From Neisseria meningitidis (GTDB lineage: Bacteria; Pseudomonadota; Gammaproteobacteria; Burkholderiales; Neisseriaceae), in assembly GCA_923184405.1 (NCBI GenBank), contig OV299793.1, positions 2,081,935 through 2,124,927 of the forward strand: a DNA stretch of 42,993 nt. Direction: 5' to 3'. A model generated the notes under the pieces. That model did not search any database, was not told where the DNA came from, and was given only the letters and a program-made list of their open reading frames with translations. Within the stretch, counting starts at the first letter, position 1; each line of letters begins with the position of its first letter. Shown in pieces: positions 28,839 to 42,993 of the stretch. Position numbers and translations under genes: made by a program.

Positions 28839-29058
28839 ATGAGTATGCCCGAAATGCCCAAATGGTACGACGATGACGGACAGATCGTGTCCTGTACCGA
28901 AAAGGTCAAAGTGATGTCCGAAAATATGGCCGAGCTGTATCAGACGGCACAAGACGCGTTTGAAGACGCGCTGCTGATGGGTTGCGGCGAACGTCAGTTG
29001 CGCGACTACCTGCTCGCGCTGATTGAAGCGTTTGGAAAATCCCTACCGCAAAGTCTGA
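28839..29058 (+). pseudogene. Small conserved hypothetical protein, probable frameshift
   Basis: Starts MSMPEMPKWYDDDGQIVSCT, 18 bases after the nlpC stop with an AAGGAA ribosome site, so likely co-transcribed with it. The middle (EKVKVMSENMAELYQTAQDA) is acidic and helical, with no signal or membrane segment. As read, the frame would run to about 29147, straight through the strong hairpin terminator at 29076-29101, which is implausible. In the next frame RLENPYRKV ends at a TGA (29056-29058), giving about 73 residues, so I place one indel near 29020-29035. Function unknown. Confidence 0.55.
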
Positions 29059-29075
29059 ACACGCCCCGGTTGCTG

Positions 29076-29101
29076 CGGCACGGTTTATCCGTGCCGTTTT
29101 T
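29076..29101 (+). terminator. Strong intrinsic terminator
   Basis: CGGCACGG (29076-29083), loop TTTAT, CCGTGCCG (29089-29096), then TTTTT. A perfect 8-bp GC-rich stem with a T run, ending the nlpC-hypothetical unit. An inverted AT-DUS follows at 29125-29136. Confidence 0.9.
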
Positions 29102-29202
29102 GCGTTTGAGCGCGGCTTCGGCTTTTCAGACGGCATATTTGACGTTATGATTAAACAGTTAACAAGATTTATCACAACGCCGTCAAAAGACAGACACACA
29201 AC

Positions 29203-29547
29203 ATGAACATCATCCGCGCGCTCCTCATCATCCTCGGCTGCCTCGACGCCGACGAAACCGCCGTTTTCCTAGCAGGCATCAAACTGCCCGACAGCATCGT
29301 CGGCATGGGCGTGCTGTTTGCGCTTTTGCAGGCAGGCTGGGTCAAAACGTCTTGACTGCAACAGCTTACCGACGCGCTGATGGCGAATCTGACGCTGTTT
29401 CTCGTGCCGCCCTGCGTGGCGGTCATCAACTATTTCCATTTGATTGCCGACGATTGGTTTTCGATACTGGTTTCCGCCTCCGCCAGCACTTTGTGCGTAC
29501 TGCTGGTTACAGGCAAGGTTCACCGCTGGATACGCAGCATTATCTGA
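29203..29547 (+). pseudogene. lrgA: LrgA/CidA holin-like membrane protein with a nonsense codon
   Basis: Small four-helix membrane protein; the LrgA/CidA family acts with LrgB in control of murein hydrolase activity or export of small metabolites. Begins MNIIRALLIILGCLDADETA, then VFLAGIKLPDSIVGMGVLFA, where LP(G/D)SIVGM is the family hallmark. At 29353-29355 TGA replaces the expected TGG of TSWLQQL; no frame change is needed and the sequence continues LTDALMANLTLFLVPPCVAV to HRWIRSII and a stop at 29545-29547. 114 residues when repaired. The stop overlaps the lrgB start as TGATG. Confidence 0.85.
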
Positions 29548-30238
29548 TGAACGAAATCCTCAGCCAGCCCAGCGTTCTGCTTTTCCTCACGCTTGCCGTG
29601 TACGCGCTTGCGATTATCGTGCGCACGCGCACGGGCATATCTTCTGCAACCCCGTACTCGTCAGCACTATCGTGCTGATTGCCTACCTGAAAACCCTCGA
29701 CAGCGATTATGCCGTGTACCACAACGCCGCGCAATTCACTGATTGTTGCCTGAAACCCGCCGTCGTCGCTCATGCCGTGCCGATCTACCAAAACCGCCGA
29801 ACCATCTGCCACCAGTGGCTGCCCGTCATCGTTTCGCAGCTTGCGGGCAGCGTTACGTGCATTGTTGCGAAATGTCTTTCGCCAAACGGCTGGGCGCGGC
29901 ACGCGAAGTCGTCCTCCCGCTCGCGTCCAAATCTGATACCAACCCCATCGCCATTGAAATCACCCACTCCATCGACGGCATCGCCGCCATTACCGACGCC
30001 ACCGTCATCAGTGCCAATCTGGTGCGGACAGATCGCCGATGACAACGTCCTGAAGAACACAGTCGGCATGCCTTCGTCCGTGGGTATGTCGCTCGGCACG
30101 GCTTCGCACGCGATGGGGATTGACGCCTGGCTCGAACGCAGCCGCCGAATGGCGGCATACGCGGGACTGGGGCTGACGTTCAACGGCGTACTGACCGCGC
30201 TGATTGCGCCGCTGCTCAGCCCCGTTTTGGGATTTTGA
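29547..30238 (+). pseudogene. lrgB: LrgB/CidB family membrane protein, frameshifted
   Basis: Partner of LrgA. Starts MNEILSQPSVLLFLTLAVYA at an ATG that overlaps the lrgA stop (translational coupling). Frame is lost near 29640 (GGCAACATC shortened), then resumes as NPVLVSTIVLIAYLKTL, WLPVIVSQLAGSVT, NPIAIEIT and, in the last frame, MPSSVGMSLGTASHAMGI and LGLTFNGVLTALIAPLLSPV to LGF. The family motif SHAMGT-like SHAMGI is intact. About 231 residues when repaired. Further breaks lie near 29870 and 30024. Confidence 0.85.
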
Positions 30239-30244
30239 ACCCGT

Positions 30245-30276
30245 TTCAGACGGCATTTCAGCCCATGCTGTCTGAA
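30245..30276. terminator. DUS inverted pair after lrgB
   Basis: TTCAGACGGCAT (30245-30256) and ATGCTGTCTGAA (30265-30276, one mismatch) form a hairpin between lrgB and argJ. Confidence 0.7.
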
Positions 30277-30304
30277 CGCCGACACACTCGCAAGGAGAAC
30301 CGTT

Positions 30305-31523
30305 ATGGCTGTCAACCTGACTGAAAAAACCGCCGAACAACTGCCCGACATCGACGGCATTGCCCTCTACACCGCCCAAGCAGGCGTGAAGAAGCCCTGG
30401 CATACCGACCTGACACTGATTGCCGTAGCCGCCGACAGCATCGCCGATGCAGTCTTCACGACCAACCGTTTCTGTGCCGCGCCCGTCCACATCGCCAAAT
30501 CGCACCTTTTCGACGAAGACGGCGTGCGCGCCCTCATCATCAACACGGGCAACGCCAACGCGGGTACGGGCGCACAGGGCAGAATCGATGCATTGGCAGT
30601 GTGTGCCGCCGCTGCCCGGCAAATCGGCTGCAAACCGAACCAGGTGCTGCCCTTCTCCACCGGCGTGATTCTCGAACCGCTGCCCGCAGACAAAATCATC
30701 GCCGCGCTGCCCAAAATGCAGCCTGCCTTCGGAACGAAGCGGCACGCGCCATCATGACCACCGACACCGTGCCCAAAGCCGCCTCGCGCGAAGGCAAGGT
30801 CGGCGACAAACACACCGTCCGCGCCACGGGCATCGCCAAAGGCTCGGGCATGATTCATCCCAATATGGCGACCAAGCTCGGTTTCATCGCCACCGATGCC
30901 AAAGTTTCCCAACCCGTCTCCAACTGATGACGCAGGAAATCGCCGACGAAACCTTCAGCACCATCACCGTTGACGGCGACACCAGCACCAACGACAGCTT
31001 CGTCATCATCGCCACAAGCAAAAACAGCCGAAGCGAAATCGACAACATCGCCGACCAGCGTTACGCCCAACTCAAAGAATTGTTGTGCAGCCTCGCGCTC
31101 GAACTCGCCCAAGCCATCGTCCGCGACGGCGAAGCTACGACCAAGTTCATCACCGTCCGCGTCGAAAACGCCAAAACCCGCGACGAAGCCCGCCAAGCCG
31201 CCTACGCCGTGGCACGTTCGCCGCTGGTCAAAACCGCCTTTTTCGCCTCCGACCCCAACCTCGGCAGGCTGCTCGCCGCCATCGGTTATGCCGGCGTTGT
31301 CGACCTCGATACTGACCTCGTGGAAATGTATCTCGACGATATTTTGGTTGCCGAACACGGTGGACGCGCCGCAAGCTACACCGAAGCACAAGGGCAGGCG
31401 GTGATGTCGAAGGCCGAAATCACCGTCCGCATCAAGCCGCATCGCGGACAAAGTGCCGCCACCGTCTATACCTGCGACCTGTCGCACGGATACGTTTCCA
31501 TCAACGCCGACTACCGTTCCTGA
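30305..31523 (+). pseudogene. argJ: Glutamate N-acetyltransferase / amino-acid acetyltransferase ArgJ, two frameshifts
   Basis: Arginine synthesis: transfers acetyl from N-acetylornithine to glutamate (and, if bifunctional, uses acetyl-CoA). Starts [20 protein letters not shown] after AAGGAG. The oxyanion-hole region appears as [12 protein letters not shown]; the autoproteolysis site is in [13 protein letters not shown], where the Thr of NMAT becomes the N-terminal nucleophile of the beta chain (the next residue is usually Met, here Lys). Ends [17 protein letters not shown]. Repaired length about 406. One base is missing near 30732 ([11 protein letters not shown] expected) and one C near 30910 (QPVLQLM expected), which creates a TGA at 30925-30927 overlapping an ATG. 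The three-way split is probably artefactual. Confidence 0.92.
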
Positions 31524-31534
31524 CCCGACACGGC

Positions 31535-31565
31535 TTCAGACGGCATACATAAAATGCCGTCTGAA
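31535..31565 (+). terminator. DUS-pair terminator after argJ
   Basis: TTCAGACGGCAT (31535-31546) and ATGCCGTCTGAA (31554-31565) with a 7-base loop, immediately before clcA. Confidence 0.85.
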
Positions 31566-31582
31566 CCGCCGGACAACATGCC

Positions 31583-32990
31583 ATGACCTCCACATTCCCC
31601 CGCCGCCTCGCCCGCAAAATCCGCCAAACCCGCCGCCTGTCGCGCAAAAGCATCGCCTTTCTGTTCCTTTTGGCAGGTTCGGCACTCGTCGCCCTGACCG
31701 CGCTGTTTTTTGCCCATCTTGCCGATTTTGCGCTGGAACTGAACGCCAAACTGGTTCAACAATACCCGTGGTCCGCGTGGGTCGCGCTTCCGTTGGGTTT
31801 GCCGCTTATTGCGTGGCTACACGCAAATTCGCCCCCTTCACAGCCGGCAGCGGCATCCCGCAGGTCATCGCCTCACTGTCGCTGCCCTACGGCGCACAGA
31901 AAACGCGGCTGATCCGCCTCGGGCAGACGCTGCTGAAGATTCCGCTGACCTTTTTGGGTATGCTGTTCGACGTGTCCATCGGACGCGAGGGTCCGTCCGT
32001 GCAGGTCGGCGCGGCAGTGATGGGCGCGTGGGGCGCGTGGTGCAAGAAACACGGCTTGGCATTCAAAGGGATGCAGGAAAACGATTTGATGCCGGCGGGC
32101 GCGGCCGGCGGATTGGCAGCCGCGTTCAACGCGCCGCTGGCGGGCGTGATTTTCGCCATTGAGGAACTCGGGCGCGGCATCATGTTGCGCTGGGAGAGGC
32201 AAATTCTTTTGGGCGGGCTCGCCTCCGGTTTCATACAGGTCGCCATTCAGGGCAACAGCCCGTATTTTTCGCGCTTCAACGCGGCGTATTGGAACATATC
32301 TTTCTGTGGGTCGCACTGTCCGGCCTGGTTTGCGGCGCGGCGGGCGGCCTGTTCGGACGTTTGCTCTATCGCGGTGCGGCGGCGTTTGCACCGCGCAAGA
32401 TACGCGGCTTCATCCGCAACCGTCCGCTGCTGCTGGCGGCACTGATGGGGCTGCTGCTCGCCCTGCTCGGCACGTTCTACCAAGGCAAAACCTACGGCAC
32501 CGGCTACCACGAAGCCGCCCAAGCCCTGCACGGCATCTACGAAGCCCCCTTTGGACTCGCCGCCGCCAAACGGCTCGCCACCGTATTCAGCGAGTGGGCA
32601 GGCGTTCCGGGCGGCATTTTCACTCCCTCGCTGACCATAGGCGCGGTTTTGGGCGAGCATATCGCCGCCATCGCCGACATATCGCAGGGTGCAAACATCA
32701 TCGTCCTCATCTGCATGGCGGCATTTCTGGCGGGCGCGACACAATCCCCGATTACTTCCGCCGTCGTCGTCATGGAAATGACGGGCGGACAAAGCCTGCT
32801 GTTTTGGATGCTAATTGCCTGCATTTTCGCCTCGCAGGTTTCGCGCCAGTTTTCGCCGCGTCCGTTCTACCACGCATCGGGAATGCGCTTCCGCCAGCGC
32901 GTGCTTCAAGAAACCGCCGCCCAAACTTGCAATGCGCCCGCAAGACCGCAAACAGCAAACAGCAAAACGGGAATGCCGTCTGAAAATTAA
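31583..32990 (+). pseudogene. clcA: ClC-family chloride channel/antiporter, two frameshifts
   Basis: Homodimeric inner-membrane Cl-/H+ exchanger or channel. Starts MTSTFPRRLARKIRQTRRLS, basic before the first helix. The ClC selectivity-filter motifs are all present: GSGIPQ, GREGPSVQ (with the gating Glu) and GVPGGIFTP, in order, plus AFLAGATQSPITSAVVVMEM. About 470 residues when repaired. One G is missing near 31819 (WLTRKFAPF expected) and one near 32281 (NGGVLEHIF expected). The last codons, GMPSEN-stop, are encoded by an AT-DUS (32973-32984), so the uptake sequence is part of the coding tail. Confidence 0.9.
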
Positions 32991-33063
32991 AACGCCCTGA
33001 TCAAACGCCTACAGCCGCCTTGATTTGAATACCGTTCCGCCGCCGCTTGAAATTTCAGCAACA

Positions 33064-33102
33064 ATGCCGTCTGAACGACAGAATGCGGTTTTCAGACGGC
33101 AT
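33064..33102. terminator. DUS-pair terminator between clcA and hrpA
   Basis: ATGCCGTCTGAA (33064-33075) and TTCAGACGGCAT (33091-33102). Confidence 0.8.
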
Positions 33103-33141
33103 TTCCCCATCCCGATATTGCCTAAACAAAACCGAAGCGTT

Positions 33142-33150
33142 TGCTATAAT
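33142..33150 (+). promoter_or_regulatory. Extended -10 promoter for hrpA
   Basis: TGC-TATAAT at 33142-33150, 26 bases before the hrpA ATG, the same element and spacing as at mnmE. No -35 box is needed for this class. Confidence 0.55.
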
Positions 33151-33176
33151 TGCACTTTTACCGCACACGCACGCCC

Positions 33177-34568
33177 ATGTTTCCTGATTTCTCCCAAACC
33201 CTCTCCAAAGACCGCCACTTCCTGCAATCCGCCTTCAAAAATCCCAACAAATACGGCGGCTTGTCCAAAGTCGAAGAAAAATACCGAAAATCGCACGAAA
33301 TCTTTTTGAAACGTTTGGCAACCTTGCCTAAACCCGAATTCGACAACACCCTGCCCGTTCACGAAAAACTTGACGAAATCAAAAAAGCCGTTGCCGAAAA
33401 TCAGGTAACGATTATTTGCGGCGAAATAAGTTCGGGCAAAACCACGCAGTTGCCCAAGATTTGTTTGGAACTCGGGCGCGGGGTGGCAGGTTTGATCGGG
33501 CATACCCAGCCGCGCCGTTTGGCGGCGCGCTCGGTAGCAGAGCGGATTGCCGAAGAGCTGAAATCCGAAATCGGCAGCGCGGTCGGCTATAAAGTACGCT
33601 TCACCGACCACACCTCGCGCGATGCCTGCGTCAAGCTGATGACCGACGGCATCCTGCTGGCGGAAACGCAGACCGACCGTTATCTCGCCGCCTACGACAC
33701 GATTATCATCGACGAAGTGCACGAGCGCAGCCTGAACATCGACTTCCTTTTGGGCTATTTGAAACAACGCCTGCCGCGCCGCCCAGATTTGAAAGTCATC
33801 ATCACCTCGGCAACGATAGACGCAGAACGCTTCTCCCGACACTTCAACGGCGCGCCCGTTTTAGAAGTGAGCGGACGGACGCATCCCGTCGAAATCCTCT
33901 ACCGACCGCTGACAAGCAAAGACGAAGACGACGCAGAAGTGGAGTTGACCGACGCGATTGTCGATGCGGCGGACGAATTAGCGCGACACGGCGAAGGCGA
34001 TATTTTGGTATTCCTGCCGGGCGAGCGCGAAATCCGCGAAACTGCCGAAGCCTTACGCAAATCTACACTGCGCCGCAACGACGAAATCCTTTCCCTGTTC
34101 GCACGCCTGTCGCACGCCGAGCAGCACAAAATCTTCCACCCTTCAGGCGCGAAACGCCGCATCGTATTGGCAACCAACGTCGCCGAAACCTCGCTTACCG
34201 TGCCGGGCATCAAATACGTCATCGACACCGGCCTCGCGCGCGTCAAACGCTATTCCGCACGGGCAAAGGTGGAGCAGCTTCATGTCGAAAAAATCTCGCA
34301 AGCCGCCGCCCGCCAACGCTCCGGCCGCTGCGGACGCGTCTCCGCAGGCGTGTGTATCAGACTGTTTTCAGAAGAAGATTTCAACAGCCGCCCCGAATTT
34401 ACCGACCCATAAATCGTCCGCAGCAACCTCGCCGCCGTCATCCTGCGCATGGCATCGCTGAACCTGGGCGATGTGGCGGCATTCCCATTTTTAGAAATGC
34501 CCGATTCGCGGTATATCAATGACGGTTTTCAGGTATTGCTGGAGTTGGGGGCGGTAGAGGCCGTCTGA
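33177..34568 (+). pseudogene. hrpA: HrpA DEAH-box RNA helicase, N-terminal part (split gene)
   Basis: ATP-dependent 3'-5' RNA helicase that resolves stalled ribosomes or structured mRNA. Starts [20 protein letters not shown]. Motif I is [10 protein letters not shown], the DEAH box is DEVHERS, motif III is ITSATIDAE, and motif VI is [12 protein letters not shown], all in one frame. A TAA at 34410-34412 replaces the expected GAA of TDPEI; translation would otherwise continue IVRSNLAAVILRMASLNLGD to LLELGAVEAV and meet a TGA at 34566-34568 inside an AG-type uptake sequence. The protein should continue with RYRLTKLGEQMARLPIDPKI, which is found 4 kb away at 38584, beyond lpt3. The helicase core is thus separated from its C-terminal half. 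Confidence 0.92.
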
Positions 34569-34569
34569 A
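34558..34569 (+). other. AG-DUS at left junction of the lpt3 block
   Basis: AGGCCGTCTGAA, the AG dialect of the neisserial uptake sequence, at the exact end of hrpA homology. Its inverted partner lies at 38539-38550. Confidence 0.8.
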
Positions 34570-36618
34570 AACAAATAGACATGAGAGACAAACTTCGTAC
34601 ACTGATGCAAACCCACCAATGCTATAATAAGTACAAAATACTCGCTCAACGAACAAAACTGCGACAACTAAACAAATAAAACATGAAACAGCCATTTTGA
34701 AAGATATATGCATGGACCAACCTCAAAGACACAAAATACTATAACGACAATACCAAACTTGACAACCATAAGAATGTATAACGGACAAATACTACAAATT
34801 ATCGATGGTGCGAATCGCGACACGTAAAACACGAATACCATTCATCATGAAGTACAATACAGGAAAAAGCACTTAGAATTTCTTCTCATAGCCTCGCACA
34901 AGTACAACCACTGATCACAAACAAATAGCAAACCAAGAGTGAAAAAACATATCCACATTACGCTCAAAACACCCAATCGAATCGTCTATGAAAAAGCAAA
35001 AACCACAGACGGTATAAGAGCGCATAAATCATTACTAAACGATACTAATTCGACAGTACAAAAATTATTAACTAACCGAGGTAAAAGTGCTAGAAAATAG
35101 TCAAAATCTCAACCGCCCTCAAAAAGTGGCCACTGCAAACACAAAGCTAGCTATCTACCAGATGAATAGAAACATCCTCACCGCCCCAGATAATTACAGA
35201 TCATAGCAAATCATCTGCAAATCTCTGCAATAGATAATCACGCATGTATTAAGAATAAAATAAAAGTGATGGAGAGCCAGAAATAATCTATAATCTAGAA
35301 CCAGATTCAACAGTTCATGAATAAACAGTTTCCAAATCAGATCAGCCAGAATTACATAGCGATAAAGGAATAACTCCAAATCTAGTAGCATACCACCCAA
35401 AACTTACGACCTGAATTGTTCAAACCAAATCAAAAAACACCAAAATCAAAAAGCTCCAACTCGAATAACAAAACAATAAAACATCAAACATTATCATACG
35501 AAAACTGAAAACAAACAGCGGGAAAATCATGAAAGAAACTATACAGAAAAAACAACAACCATCATTTTAGGCAGTATTAAACAAATATAACCTGTTGAAA
35601 TCAGGAAAAATAGTTAAGATATCCCAACGAACCTCTAATAAAATCCAGAATGGACCAGCATACAAACGAGGAACACAAAGAAATTAATGCATCAGAAACA
35701 CACACTGAAAAAATTTAGCAAGAATGCCATCTAAGCATCAAAGGTTCTCAAATTGAGGTTTACATTGTAGGATGAAAGACATAATGACAACTAGTGAACA
35801 ACAATAACTACCTCACACCCATATCCAAACTCACAAAATCTTTTTAACCAAACTGCAGTAGAATTAGAAACATTGAAAATAAAACAGATACTCAACTCAA
35901 GAATACTCGATAAACTTAATGGTCAAAAGCAGAACTAATTCACTGCGTCAAACCCCAATGTAGTAAGGCAATGACGCATAGGAAGAAACTGCATAACAAA
36001 CGTAGGGCGCGCTGACGCAAAATGAGCCCAGGAAAGGAAACTTGGAAAGAAAACCGATGAAGAATGCCAACAACCACCAATTGCAACGCTACTAAAAAAG
36101 CACTCAAAGCACAAAACTTCATCACATAAACAGAACTGCAAATAGCATACCTACAAACCCATAAAAATAAAGATCCAATACAAAAACCCATACAAAGGAC
36201 ACAGATTAGAAGCAACAAAAAACCATGATAACCTAAGCCACCAAGCGTTGTCACAAAAACCGAGAAAACGCACGCAACCCCAACAGTCGAAACATAACAA
36301 GACATTCACACCTGCGATAATTACAACATTAAAAGAAAGCACCAAAGATGAATTGCTAAAAGCTGACAGATGCTGACCAGTTCTTGATAAGCTAAAACCA
36401 TCAGAGAATATGCATGCAGCATACAGAAAGACTGCATGAAACAACATCAAACTAGACTATAAAACAAAAAATCGAGTAACCTGATTTCTAACTGAGTCAA
36501 ACAAGCGCCAGTCTCATTACAGCAAACAATACAGCAATAACCAAACTCGACCAACAAATACCGCACATGAACAACAAACCGAAAATTGCACATAAACTGC
36601 CAGAACTATACAGCATCT
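34570..36618. other. A/C-rich, AT-rich stretch without credible genes
   Basis: About 2 kb between the hrpA N-terminal part and a second hrpA fragment. The plus strand is strikingly A- and C-rich: 34741-34800 counts A30 C12 T12 G6, and 36061-36120 counts A28 C18 T8 G6. Open frames are short; the longest, on the minus strand (35940-36305 and 36151-36450), translate to hydrophobic T-driven strings with no motif I recognise. It could be a decayed minus-strand membrane-protein gene, foreign DNA, or poor sequence. Confidence 0.6.
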
Positions 36619-36699
36619 AAAAATGCCCGATTCACGGCAGATAAATGACGGTTTTCAGCGTGTTGATGCAATTGGGCGCATAGAGACCGTCTTAAAACA
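36619..36699 (+). repeat. Diverged second copy of an hrpA segment
   Basis: Matches 34494-34572 (end of the hrpA N-terminal part: AAATGCCCGATTC, then AATGACGGTTTTCAG, then a degenerate AG-DUS reading AGACCGTCTTAAAA) with numerous mismatches. Together with the first copy it flanks the A/C-rich stretch as direct repeats. Confidence 0.8.
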
Positions 36700-36835
36700 A
36701 AATCATTCTTAATAAAAAGACAGACCAACTTTCAGATACAGACGGCTTAAAACATTCAAAAACTAATAGTTATTACAAAAGGGAATATAGGACCCCAAAA
36801 CTCAATCGGTAAACTTTTATTGTGAACTCTCAATT

Positions 36836-38410
36836 ATGAAAAAATCTTTCCTTTCTCTAATTCTGTATTCGTCCTTACTTACCGCCAGCGAAATTGCTTA
36901 TCGCTTTGTATTTCGAATTGAAACCTTACCGGCTGCAAAAATGGCAGAAACGTTTGCGCTGACATTTGTGATTGCTGCGCTGTATCTGTTTGCGCGTTAT
37001 AAGGCGACGCGTTTGTTGATTGCGGTGTTTTTCGCGTTCAGCATTATTGCCAACAATGTGCATTACGCGGTTTATCAAAGTTGGATGACGGGCATCAATT
37101 ATTGGCTGATGCTGAAAGAGATTACCGAAGTTGGCGGCGCGGGGGCGTCGATGTTGGATAAGTTGTGGCTGCCTGCGTTGTGGGGCATGTTGGAAGTCAT
37201 GTTGTTTTGCAGCCTTGCCAAGTTCCGCCGTAAGACGCATTTTTTCTGCCGATATACTGTTTGCCTTCCTAATGCTGATGATTTTCGTGCGTTCGTTCGA
37301 CACGAAACAAGAGCACGGTATTTCGCCCAAACCGACATACAGCCGTATCAAAGCCAATTATTTCAGCTTCGGTTATTTTGTCGGACGCGTATTGCCGTAT
37401 CAGTTGTTTGATTTAAGCAAAATCCTGTGTTCAAACAGTCTGCGCCAAGCAAAATCGGGCAGGGCAGTGTTCAAAATATCGTCCTGATTATGGGCGAAAG
37501 CGAAAGCGCGGCGCATTTGAAATTGTTTGGCTACGGGCGCGAAACTTCGCCGTTTTTAACCCAGCTGTCGCAAGCCGATTTTAAGCCGATTGTGAAACAA
37601 AGTTATTCCGCAGGCTTTATGACGGCAGTATCCCTGCCCAGTTTCTTTAACGTGATACCGCATGCCAACGGCTTGGAACAAATCAGCGGCGGCGATACCA
37701 ATATGTTCCGCCTCGCCAAAGAGCAGGGCTATGAGACGTATTTTTACAGTGCTCAGGCTGAAAACCAAATGGCAATTTTGAACTTAATCGGTAAGAAATG
37801 GATAGACCATCTGATTCAGCCGACGCAGCTTGGCTACGGCAACGGCGACAATATGCCCGATGAGAAGCTGCTGCCGCTGTTCGACAAAATCAATTTGCAG
37901 CAGGGCAGGCATTTTATCGTGTTGCACCAACGCGGTTCGCACGCCCCATACGGCGCATTGTTGCAGCCTCAAGATAAAGTATTCGGCGAAGCCGATATTG
38001 TGGATAAGTACGACAACACCATCCACAAAACCGACCAAATGATTCAAACCGTATTCGAGCAGCTGCAAAAGCAGCCTGACGGCAACTGGCTGTTTGCCTA
38101 TACCTCCGATCATGGCCAGTATGTTCGCCAAGATATCTACAATCAAGGCACGGTGCAGCCCGACAGCTATCTCGTGCCGCTGGTGTTGTACAGCCCGGAT
38201 AAGGCCGTGCAACAGGCTGCCAACCAGGCTTTTGCGCCTTGCGAGATTGCCTCCCATCAGCAGCTTTCAACGTTCCTGATTCACACGTTGGGCTACGATA
38301 TGCTGGTTTCAGGTTGTCGCGAAGGCTCGGTAACGGGCAACCTGATTACAGGTGATGCAGGCAGCTTGAACATTCGCGACGGCAAGGCGGAATATGTTTA
38401 TCCGCAATGA
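36836..38410 (+). pseudogene. lpt3: LPS inner-core phosphoethanolamine transferase Lpt3, two frameshifts
   Basis: Inner-membrane enzyme that moves phosphoethanolamine from phosphatidylethanolamine to position 3 of heptose II in the LPS inner core, an epitope-defining change. Starts MKKSFLSLILYSSLLTASEI. Five hydrophobic segments come first (TFALTFVIAALYLFARY, LLIAVFFAFSIIANNVHYAV, LPALWGMLEVMLFCSLA, ILFAFLMLMIFVRSF), then the periplasmic sulfatase-fold domain: IVLIMGESESAAHLKLFGYG carries the nucleophile position, then HQRGSHAPYG and YTSDHGQY, metal ligands of the family. Ends GKAEYVYPQ at 38408-38410. About 525 residues when repaired. Breaks near 37235 and 37430. Among Neisseria PEA transferases the location beside hrpA and the GESESAAH motif favour Lpt3 over LptA or Lpt6. 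Confidence 0.8.
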
Positions 38411-38538
38411 GTGGCGTAAAACCAATAAAGACAAATTTAGATGATGTCGGGAAGATGCCCGACCGACAAGACTATGCAAAATATGAAAAACCAAGTACGC
38501 GGATCAGGCATGGATGCACGATCCAATCCGGCCAATGT

Positions 38539-38550
38539 TTCAGACGGCCT
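38539..38550 (-). other. Inverted AG-DUS at right junction of the lpt3 block
   Basis: TTCAGACGGCCT, reverse complement of AGGCCGTCTGAA, about 35 bases before hrpA homology resumes. With the left copy it brackets the whole inserted block. Confidence 0.75.
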
Positions 38551-39765
38551 GCAAAACAGTTCGGGTCATATCGGTACCAACACGCGTTACCGCCTGACCA
38601 AACTCGGCGAACAAATGGCGCGCCTGCCCATCGACCCGAAAATCGCGCGCATTTTGTTGGCGGCGAAGAAGCACGACTGCATGGCGGAAATATTGGTGAT
38701 CGCGTCCGCGCTGTCGATTCAAGACCCGCGCGAGCGGCCGCTGGAAGCGCGCGATGCCGCCGCCAAGGCGCACGAGCGTTTTACCGACAAGCAATCTGAC
38801 TTTCTTGCCTATCTGAACATTTGGGACAGCTTCCAGCGCGAGCGCGACAAGGGCTTGTCCAACAAGCAGTTGGTGCAGTGGTGCCGTCAATATTTCCTGT
38901 CGCACCTGCGGATGCGCGAGTGGCGCGAGCTGCACCACCAGCTTGCCCAAACCGCGATTGAAATGGGTTTGACCATCAAGGAAGCGGCTTTCAGACGACT
39001 TTCCGAAATCAAGCAGCTTACGTCGTCTGAAAACCCAGGCGATCAAGACCTATCCGCCAAACGCAAACAAAAACAACTGGATAAAAAACAACACCGCGCC
39101 CAAATCCGCGCCGCCAAAGAAGCGGGCTACGAACAAATCCACCGCGCCCTGCTCACTGACCTTATCGCCAACGTCGGCATGAAATCGCCCGACGGCAACG
39201 ACTATACCGGCGCGCGCGGCAGCCGCTTCCACCTTTTCCCCGCCTCCGCCCTGTTCAAAGCCAAACCCAAATGGGTGATGGCGGCAGAACTCGTTGAAAC
39301 GACAAAACTTTATGCGCGCGACGTCGCCGTTATCCAGCCCGAATGGATTGAGCAGGAAGCCCCGCACCTCGTCCGCTACCACTATTTCGAGCCGCACTGG
39401 GAACAAAAACGCGGCGAAGTCGTCGCCAGCGAACGCGTGACGCTTTACGGCCTGACCGTATTGCCGCGCCGCCCCGTGCCTTACGGCAAAGTTGCGCCCG
39501 AAGAAGCACGTGAAATCTTTATCCGCAGCGCGTTGGTGGCGCAGGAATGCGATTTGAAAGCGGATTTTTTTGTCCACAACAAAAAGCTGATTAAAGAAAT
39601 TACCGAACTCGAACACAAATCGCGCAAGCAAGACGTGTTGGTCGACGACGAAGCCCTGTTTGCGTTTTATAACGAACGCCTGCCCGAAATGGCTTGGAAA
39701 GACGCGCAAGGCAGCGTTTGGGAAGTGAAGATTCCGTACGGATTATTGAATCTGACAAAGCCGAG

Positions 39766-39777
39766 AGGTCGTCTGAA
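39766..39777 (+). other. AG-mucDUS uptake sequence variant in hrpA
   Basis: AGGTCGTCTGAA, the dialect known from the N. mucosa group, just before the repeat insert. GTCGTCTGAA-like copies also occur near 38993 (inverted) and 39024, whereas genes outside hrpA carry ATGCCGTCTGAA. Confidence 0.7.
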
Positions 39778-39846
39778 AATGAGCGCAACGAGTTTCGTAA
39801 AAACAAGCGTAATGGGTCTCGCCAAAATGAAAATCACGGCAACACC

Positions 39847-40400
39847 GTAGGTTGGGTTGAAAACCCAACATCAGCCGCAACTGCAAAAACTGTTGGGTTT
39901 GACAACCCAACCTACGCTACTCAGCAAACCACCCCCTCCCCCGAGAGGGAGGGTCGGGGAGAGGGCAAAACAGTTGCCGCACAAACCAACTTTTCCGCAA
40001 CCGCAGCAAACCTCGCACAAACCCTCTCCCGCAGGAGAGGGAGCAGAGTGCCGCAGCTTCAGCGGTTTCAAACGACCCGCATCCTGCAAATCCCCAGCAA
40101 ACCGACCCCTCCCCCGTAGGGAGGGCTGGGAGAGGGCAAACAGTTGCCACCCAAACCAACTTTTCCGCAACCACAGCAAACCCTCTCCCACAGGAGAGGG
40201 AACAGAGTGCCGCAGCTTCAGCGGTTTCAAACGACCTGCACCCCGCAAAACCCCAAAAACCGTCTCCCTCCCCCGTGACGACAGCGCTGCGGAAAGGGCA
40301 AAACCGTTGCCACCCAAACCAACTCATCCGCAGCCTCAGCCCTCTCAGACGACTCCAAACCCAAAACGCAGCCAGCACCCCAAAAAAACCGTCTGAAACC
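39847..40400 (+). repeat. Inverted repeat plus ~3 degenerate GC-rich tandem units inside hrpA
   Basis: GTAGGTTGGGTT...AACCCAACCTAC (39847-39915) forms a long inverted repeat. It is followed by three related units starting near 39930, 40103 and 40262. Each has a CCTCCCCCG...GGGAGGG hairpin, AGAGGGCAAA...GTTGCC and ACCAACTTTTCCGCAACC; the first two also carry CCTCTCCC-CAGGAGAGGG and GTGCCGCAGCTTCAGCGGTT. No frame runs cleanly through. It resembles intergenic repeats seen in neisserial genomes, not coding sequence. Confidence 0.75.
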
Positions 40401-41890
40401 CCTACCCCTCGCCGACATCCGCACCTTCTAAGCCTGGCTCACAACCGCCGAACGCGACAACCCGCGCCTGCTGTTCCTCAGCCGCGACGATCTGATGCAG
40501 CACGCCGCCGCACACATTACCGAAGAACAATTCCCCAAATTCTGGCAAACCGCAGACGGCAAATTCGAACTTGCCTACCGCTTCGAGCCGCACCACCCGC
40601 TCGACGGCGTAACCCTCACCCTGCCGCTTACCGTCCTCAACCGCATGCACGCGCCATCGCACGAATGGCTCGTGCCCGGCATGATGCGCGAAAAAATCCA
40701 GCTGCAGATTAAAGCACTGCCCAAGCAAATCCGCCGCATCTGCGTGCCCGTGCCCGAATTCATCACCCAACTTTTAAGCCAAAACCCCGACCGCAACGCC
40801 CCCATCCTGCCCCAACTCGCCCAAGCCATCGCCAAAACCGCAGGCGACATCCGCATATTCGAGCAAATCAACCAAGACGAATGGGCCGCGTTCAGGCTGC
40901 CCGAACACTGCTATTTCAACCTCCGCATCATCGACGACGGCGGACAAGAATTAGCCAAAGGCCGCAATTTAATCCAAATCCAACAACAACTCGGCCAAGC
41001 CGCCGCCGTTACCTTACGCGACAACACCCAAGAACTCGAGCGCGACAACGTCACCGCATGGGACATCGGCATCCTGCCCGAATCCATCAAATTCGCACGC
41101 GGCAAACAACAGCTCACCGGCTATCTCGGCCTGCAAAAAGAAAAAGACGGCCGCATCGCCCTGCGCCTGTTCGACACAATAGAAGCCGCAGAACAGGCAC
41201 ACCGTCAAGGCGTGATAGAACTCATGAAACTACAACTAAAAGAACAAGTTAAAGACCTGAACAAAGGCATCCAAGGCTTCACCCATGCCGCCATGCTGCT
41301 CAAACACATCAACGCCGACACCCTGCGCGACGACCTCACCCAAGCCGTCTGCGACCGCGCCGTTATCGGCGAAGACGAGCTGCCGCGTAACCAAAAAGCC
41401 TTCAAAGAGCAAATCAAACGCGCCTGCAGCCGCCTGCCTGCCGTCAAAGAAGACCTCAGCCGCTACCTGCAGGAAACCGCAGCCGCCTACGCCGAACTCA
41501 ACAGCAAACTCGGCAAACACCCATTGACCCACCTCCTACGCCAACGCCTGCAAACACTGCTTATAGAATACTTCGCCACCCGCACCCCGAGGGTACAATG
41601 GCCGCGCCTCCCCATCTACCTCAAAGCCATGACCCTGCGCCTCGAAAAATACAGTAGAAACCCTGCCCGAGACGCAGCCCGCGAAGCCGATATCCAAGAG
41701 CTGGAACAAATGTGGCAGGAAAAAACAGACAGCCTGATTAAACAAAGGTCTCCCCATTTCAGACGGCCTCGCCGCGTTTAAATGGATGATTGAAGAATTG
41801 AAAGTGTCGCTGTTCGCGCAGGAATTGAAGACACCGTATCCGGTGTCGGTGAAGCGGTTGTTGAAAGAGTGGGAAGATCTTGAAAAGGAA

Positions 41891-42993
41891 AGATGCTGTC
41901 TGAATATTTTCAGGCTGATGGTTTATCTGACCAACCGATGTTGCCGACATCTATGTAAGAACCTCTCAACCAAAACAAACTACCAATTAGAAACATCTTT
42001 GGCAGATTCCTTTAAAGTCTCAGCTTCCTGTTCGAGATTTATGACAGCAATTCCTAAATCAGTTAGCATATTTCGCAATGCGCTTCAAAATACACCTTTA
42101 CACAAGCTCTGGTTCAACACAACACTAATTTCTCTTCGCAAACAAAGGATATCGTCTTTCTATATACATCCTGTCAGAAAACATTCCAAATTCATGCGTC
42201 TGTTAAGCCTAACGCACACATCTCAGACTACCAAATTGTCTTTTGATTATTAATATATTTGCAATTGAAGTTATGAACATGAGCGATATTAGCTTGTTCC
42301 AAACTACGACAATAAAAAAGATGAAGCATCGGCATCAGCAATCTTCTTGAAAGATATCACGAGATTCATATTTTGTATTTTCACTATTTTTACATATGTT
42401 CTAAACAGTACTAATCAAGCATCTAACTGCACTAATGCATAACCAGCATCAAATCAAGTATGATCTACAGTTTTTGAATAGTCAATATTACAAATATAAA
42501 ATTTTAATACCATCTTTTAAATTCACCCATTTCCTTCGAATCTAAAGGCAATCGACCAATAGAATGCAGAAACTTAACTCCGAAACGCTTAACCAACCAT
42601 GATTGCAGCACTTAAATAACTGCTATCAAGAAAAAAATCATTCTGAACCAGTATGCAACTCTGATGAAAATACCATAACAATGACAAAATGACATGCACA
42701 AAAATACTAAGCAAGCCAGAGAATTGTAAAACAGCATTACACGCAAGTATGCAAAGCTCCAATGCAAACAACGATTCAAATAACATACTAAGGATATTAC
42801 CCAACCTAATCACAATTATGTAAAGGCCAAGAATTACGATATCACACCTCCTGCCACTTTCACTTCGCCACCTTTCTTTTTCTTTCCACCTGCTCCATGG
42901 CTCGAACGATTTCCCAAGGAAAACCTGCAACTTGAAGTTTTAGGATGCTTCAATCCAATGATGTCCAGCACATGTAACTGAACGGGCGGTTAC
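41891..42993. other. AT-rich window end with no identified gene
   Basis: After hrpA, a degenerate DUS pair (ATGCTGTCTGAATATTTTCA, 41891-41910) is followed by about 1 kb of AT-rich sequence (42421-42480: A23 C12 T18 G7). The only coding-like traces are on the minus strand: LTDLGIAVINLEQEAETLKE plus SAKDVSNW (about 42064-41981) and EFGMFSDRMYIERRYPLFAK (about 42196-42137). They are in different frames with stops between, and I do not recognise the family. Short frames elsewhere, such as 42930-42589 minus, show no supporting motif. Confidence 0.45.

Follow-up and report, generated by a model that had tools for sequence, protein, structure and literature searches.

The window analysed here, a stretch of 42,993 nucleotides from Neisseria meningitidis, contains a gene for the RNA helicase HrpA that is interrupted by about 4 kb of other DNA carrying lpt3, and this raises the question of what such an insert is doing inside a core gene. 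An earlier note on this DNA had described the insert together with an inverted pair of AG-dialect uptake sequences (AG-DUS) at its borders, and both are real (Table 1). The note had read them as a cassette that was delivered by transformation, recombined at the uptake sequences and traded a helicase for an enzyme modifying the lipopolysaccharide. It is argued here that the window, with a probability of about 0.8, is one form of a cargo slot found across the genus, which lies between two selected hrpA genes and is swapped by recombination. The gene lpt3 is only one of many cargoes in the hrpA gap, the contents of which differ by species and often are anti-virus defence genes.

Table 1. Features of the window around the interrupted hrpA gene (positions counted within the window).
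Feature	Position	Strand	Remarks
hrpA N half	33177..34568	+	ATPase core to first part of winged-helix region; TGA stop borne by the DUS
AG-DUS at N-half stop	34558..34569	+	exact AGGCCGTCTGAA
PARIS AriAB gene remains, in A/C-rich block	34798..35729	+	by blastn/tblastn; stops throughout frame
PIN7/NYN gene remains	36050..36454	+	62% over 418 columns, E 1.6e-16 to L101
Scar C', relic of hrpA C-half start	36540..36600	+	76% to 38597-38646
Scar N', relic of hrpA N-half end with degraded DUS	36618..36697	+	
lpt3, lipooligosaccharide phosphoethanolamine transferase	36836..38410	+	broken frame, separate reading-frame pieces
hrpA C half, first part	38474..39850	+	own start MQNMKNQ; core from RYRLTKLGEQ at 38585
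AG-DUS, inverted	38539..38550	-	exact AGGCCGTCTGAA; within translated hrpA-C leader
REP-like repeats in hrpA-C linker	39922..40340		C half shifts frame near here
hrpA C half, last part	40495..41781	+	

On the left side, hrpA homology ends at the DUS, as had been noted, and this DUS supplies the in-frame stop of the N half (GAG GCC GTC TGA); an extra in-frame stop lies at 34410-34412 within the window's N half, the counterpart of which in relatives comprises 463 aa. On the right side, homology was correctly seen to resume at about 38577-38585, but the DUS that had been taken as the edge sits about 35-46 bp upstream of it. The MQNMKNQ-type start of the C half is conserved among relatives. The window's own hrpA-N, hrpA-C and lpt3 are all three broken; intact lpt3 copies were found in relatives, and positions 36812-39687 are 98% identical to the genome G001. 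Single-base indels relative to G001 occur in many frames of the window, and three private indel runs fall into lpt3 and hrpA-C, versus none or one in nine relatives. Small indels relative to G001 also split argJ, a ClC-type channel gene and others (named from sequence) at 29000-33000 and elsewhere in the window. The broken frames, those of argJ and the channel gene included, would be either sequencing errors or pseudogenes. REP-like repeats are located in or beside the frames at three places in hrpA, namely those of Table 1, in L163, and in L119 and L120 near the position corresponding to 33845 of the window.

Full-length HrpA (from L022) was searched at the protein level against 46 Neisseria genomes. 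The gene is split at the same loop in 34 of them, intact in nine and unclear in three (G011, G019, G021), and no second full hrpA was seen in the split genomes in this search. Of the split loci, 33 were read base by base together with their slots; in the 34th (G008) about 31 kb separate the halves, which lie on opposite strands and both have open frames. In all 33 loci the N half is closed at the same point (LELGAV plus a few residues) by a stop of its own, its usual start is present in 32, L118 extending further upstream, and the C core begins at RYRLTKLGEQ or nearby. In intact alleles LGAV is followed by five loop residues and then L-T/S. The in-frame start of the C half is MQN in 26 and MQx in four of the 33 loci and neither in three (L114, L116, L146), L116 having an ATG-started MNDRQ leader in place of MQN. 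The split point is the only length-variable loop of that stretch among 16 HrpA sequences, and in G083 an intact hrpA carries an in-frame repeat insert in this loop. An AlphaFold model of the junction region is weak (mean pLDDT 62) and is used as mild support only. Among the matches listed, hrpA is also split in other genera of the family, at least in L161 (G099) and L160 (G065), and L162 (G066) shows the N half only.

Such a split could mean that hrpA is dead in Neisseria, one ancient insertion having killed the gene and left a wreck that is a landing site only. Both halves are indeed broken in the window, and the C half is broken or out of frame in three of the 33 loci, by an early stop in L110, a frame change near the end in L142 and the start in L114; of the 33 C frames, the fetched sequence includes the stop for 18 and runs out before one for the other 15. 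Against this stand the N frames, which are open in all 33 loci, and median dN/dS values, which are about 0.1 for each half, as for intact hrpA. For the N half the medians are 0.121 in split (528 pairs) and 0.092 in intact alleles (36 pairs), for the C half 0.087 (527 pairs) and 0.090 (31 pairs used, five saturated). The dN/dS of a dead gene is expected to drift towards 1. Purifying selection acts on both halves of hrpA as it does on the intact gene, and because of this result the death of the gene appears very improbable. In L114 (G002), a run of eight C before the hrpA-C core puts the MQN start out of frame, which is a possible case of phase variation of half a helicase.

Both halves match full-length HrpA (L022), comprising the DEAH helicase core and the HrpA-type C-terminal part. 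The N half of the relative L105 aligns with E. coli HrpA over residues 41-460 with 611 bits (PDB 6zwx; further structures 6zww and 9gft); HrpA is one chain in E. coli, however, and two in most Neisseria. Because both halves are still selected, we infer that the two chains most likely come together as a single helicase.

The slot between the halves measures 996 to 10563 bp with a median of 2322 bp in the 33 split loci. It contains lpt3 in ten of them and a 272-bp remnant of it in one, and the other 22 have no match, which together with the continued selection on both hrpA halves leaves the idea that the helicase was traded for lpt3 without support. Forty slot proteins, likely ones first, were scanned with PADLOC and 23 reached 150 bits, one of these belonging to a gonococcal isolate that is not among the 33 loci. 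In 16 of the 33 slots a gene scores 150 bits or more against a PADLOC model, compared to none of 20 core genes taken as controls (best control 108 bits), an enrichment that refers to slot proteins chosen with the likely ones first. A PADLOC match gives a family name and is not a proof of defence. The families are type II RM (L103, L106, L135, L137, L139), Mokosh (L108, L112, L147), retron-type RT (L114, L144), PARIS AriAB (L116), SoFic-like Fic (L118), a TIR of the CAP12/PDC-S35 kind (L134), DarTG (L136), GmrSD (L141) and a PtuA-like/PDC-M01 pair (L148). A PIN7/NYN gene occurs in L101, L102, L113 and L140, and the remaining slots encode small HTH proteins, hydrolases, redox genes or unknowns, several cargo genes being without a family. 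That defence cargo is present in 16 and not in all of the 33 slots counts against the slot model.

The contents also differ within one species. In N. gonorrhoeae 2022NG-0076 the slot opens with a SIR2-like gene, a defence candidate (541 bits to PDC-S25), and in N. gonorrhoeae 2022NG-0032 with a 228-aa HTH gene; the right part of the slot, which includes lpt3, is shared by both isolates and 99.3% identical over 1912 bp. If the split were maintained by an active mobile element with hrpA as its target, this would account for the precise common site and for the Y1/RAYT-type genes encoded in L113 and L115, a similar one being present in L161. However, no integrase or recombinase family was found among the slot proteins scanned with Pfam, and the cargo varies in size, strand and content and has no common ends beyond hrpA, so that an element of this kind is extremely doubtful.

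The window contains four AG-DUS (0.01 expected) and 19 AT-DUS. At the N stop an exact DUS is found in 17 of the 33 split loci, the form GTCGTCTGAA, which we take to be a DUS dialect, in four and neither in 12; in the ten lpt3 carriers the respective numbers are five, two and three. Upstream of the C core, 22 of the 33 loci have an exact DUS at a distance of no more than 150 bp, and none was found between 60 bp before and 120 bp after the junction motif in the nine intact alleles. The DUS are present with or without lpt3 and therefore mark the site rather than the cargo. A cassette that recombined exactly at the DUS and put lpt3 in place of the helicase, as the earlier note had it, would explain the DUS at both borders of the window and the border codon that is common to lpt3 carriers. 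This account is nevertheless very unlikely to be right, given the 12 split loci, three of them lpt3 carriers, that lack a DUS at the N stop, the 22 loci in which lpt3 has no match and a helicase that was not lost. It is also contradicted by intact close relatives without a junction DUS, including L153, an observation that its author had named as contrary to it. What stands of the proposal is that foreign cargo lies at a precise hrpA codon, for which transformation with homologous recombination is the best account; DUS as its edges are not supported in the form proposed. The DUS may help the uptake of such slot fragments, and nothing in these loci shows crossovers at them.

Within the slot of the window, the A/C-rich block with the PARIS and PIN7/NYN remains is followed by the C'-N' scar and then by lpt3. 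The composition of the block is as had been described (AT skew up to 0.53), but the block contains recognisable gene remains. Its part at 34798-35729 aligns with the L116 gene (Neisseria canis protein P0001) by blastn at 57% over 962 columns (E 2e-20), and AriAB homologues match this relic by tblastn down to E 3e-16. No intact AriAB frame was found in the window's PARIS relic, which is homologous with stops throughout. Because AriAB and PIN7/NYN homology is found on the plus strand, with stops throughout, the first cargo of the window strain was probably a PARIS and PIN7 set that is now ruined, or else badly sequenced. The internal hrpA duplicate that had been pointed out was confirmed and comprises two pieces in the order C, then N, as 36540-36589 is 76% identical to the start of the hrpA C half at 38597-38646, and 36618-36658 is 88% identical to 34492-34532. 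The same C'-N' order, with one cargo before and another after, is found in L108 and L135, and L106 has the C' relic alone. These scars with their flanking cargoes fit an imperfect recombination that joined two versions of the slot in tandem.

The two relic alignments show a net T-to-A change on the plus strand (83 versus 24 and 18 versus 4). Patches with a T-to-A excess are located at 34572-36617 and 41875-42966, their genes lying on opposite strands. Poor sequence quality as the cause of a window-wide lean of changes towards A was considered and dropped, as private substitutions of relatives lean similarly in hrpA and lpt3; the T-to-A excess that remained after this comparison is that of the A/C-rich block and the contig tail, and it may be due to decay or to a sequence artefact. 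The block had no phage match, and among plasmids only a 63-bp hrpA piece was matched, from a gonococcal chromosome filed there. No RNA family reached the gathering score over 33000-42993. The contig tail at 41875-42966 (L128 1287-3395) matches genes for a Vsr-like endonuclease and a GHKL-type ATPase of G001 with 58-79% per 200-bp bin, and in G001 these genes adjoin a C5 methyltransferase (all named from sequence). The tail is a further accessory block directly past hrpA-C.

Intact alleles are also found among close split relatives. L151 and L153 are 93-99% alike to these in most bins left and right of the junction, the identity of L151 being 88% in the junction bin and that of L153 94-99% on both sides. 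The split or intact state therefore changes between close relatives. In the tree, the clade that unites the split alleles takes in three intact ones as well, with a support of 50, and because of this a single origin of the split is not shown.

The mechanism that we propose for the slot starts from hrpA being encoded in most Neisseria as two genes, which divide at a loop of the winged-helix region where indels are tolerated. The N half stops at the junction, often on a DUS, and the C half begins again at the conserved MQN leader. The conserved halves would act as homology arms, and after DNA uptake recombination in these arms would swap the intervening cargo. Imperfect exchange would stack two cargoes and leave the C'-N' scar between them, as may have occurred in the window, L108 and L135. 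More tentatively, and at somewhat below even odds, HrpA would consist of two chains in most Neisseria, the split would persist for its benefit as an anti-phage slot fed by transformation, with both arms needed, and split and intact states would interconvert.

In Neisseria, minimal mobile elements (MMEs) are described, in the accessible parts of the sources, as differing whole-gene cassettes between conserved flanks without dedicated mobility genes, with 'over 30' sites and with RM systems as common cargo (PMC3898611, PMC3082526). Compared to this description, the hrpA slot likewise has conserved flanks with different whole-gene cassettes, as found in the 33 split loci and the two N. gonorrhoeae isolates, and no integrase family among the cargo proteins scanned. 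It differs in its flanks, which are two ORFs yet halves of one ancestral core gene, both kept, and in a range of cargo well beyond the RM systems named in those parts. By analogy, the hrpA slot may operate in the manner of an MME that sits inside a core gene. Snyder reportedly compiled a catalogue of MME sites in 2007, and the hrpA slot may already be listed among the known ones. The core defence hotspots of P. aeruginosa, as far as the accessible part of the source describes them, are also fixed chromosomal places with exchangeable anti-phage systems (PMC10250203); unlike these, the hrpA slot is located inside a gene that is kept as two genes. The meningococcal 'HrpA' in the accessible text of PMC2527323 and PMC9072670 is a two-partner-secretion protein and a different gene. 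No literature linking the hrpA helicase to an MME or a defence slot was found in a search that left out the MME catalogue and most subscription papers, and within the literature found there is no report of flanks that are selected halves of one helicase or of a cargo that is broadly anti-phage across the genus.

If this reading is true, a conserved RNA helicase would be the product of two genes across most of the genus, including the gonococcus, and lpt3, a surface-modifying gene, would share an exchange slot with defence genes. The hrpA gap would then be a fixed place to seek new defence systems of Neisseria, and split and intact alleles in close relatives offer a clean comparison for asking why a core gene should stay open to such exchange.
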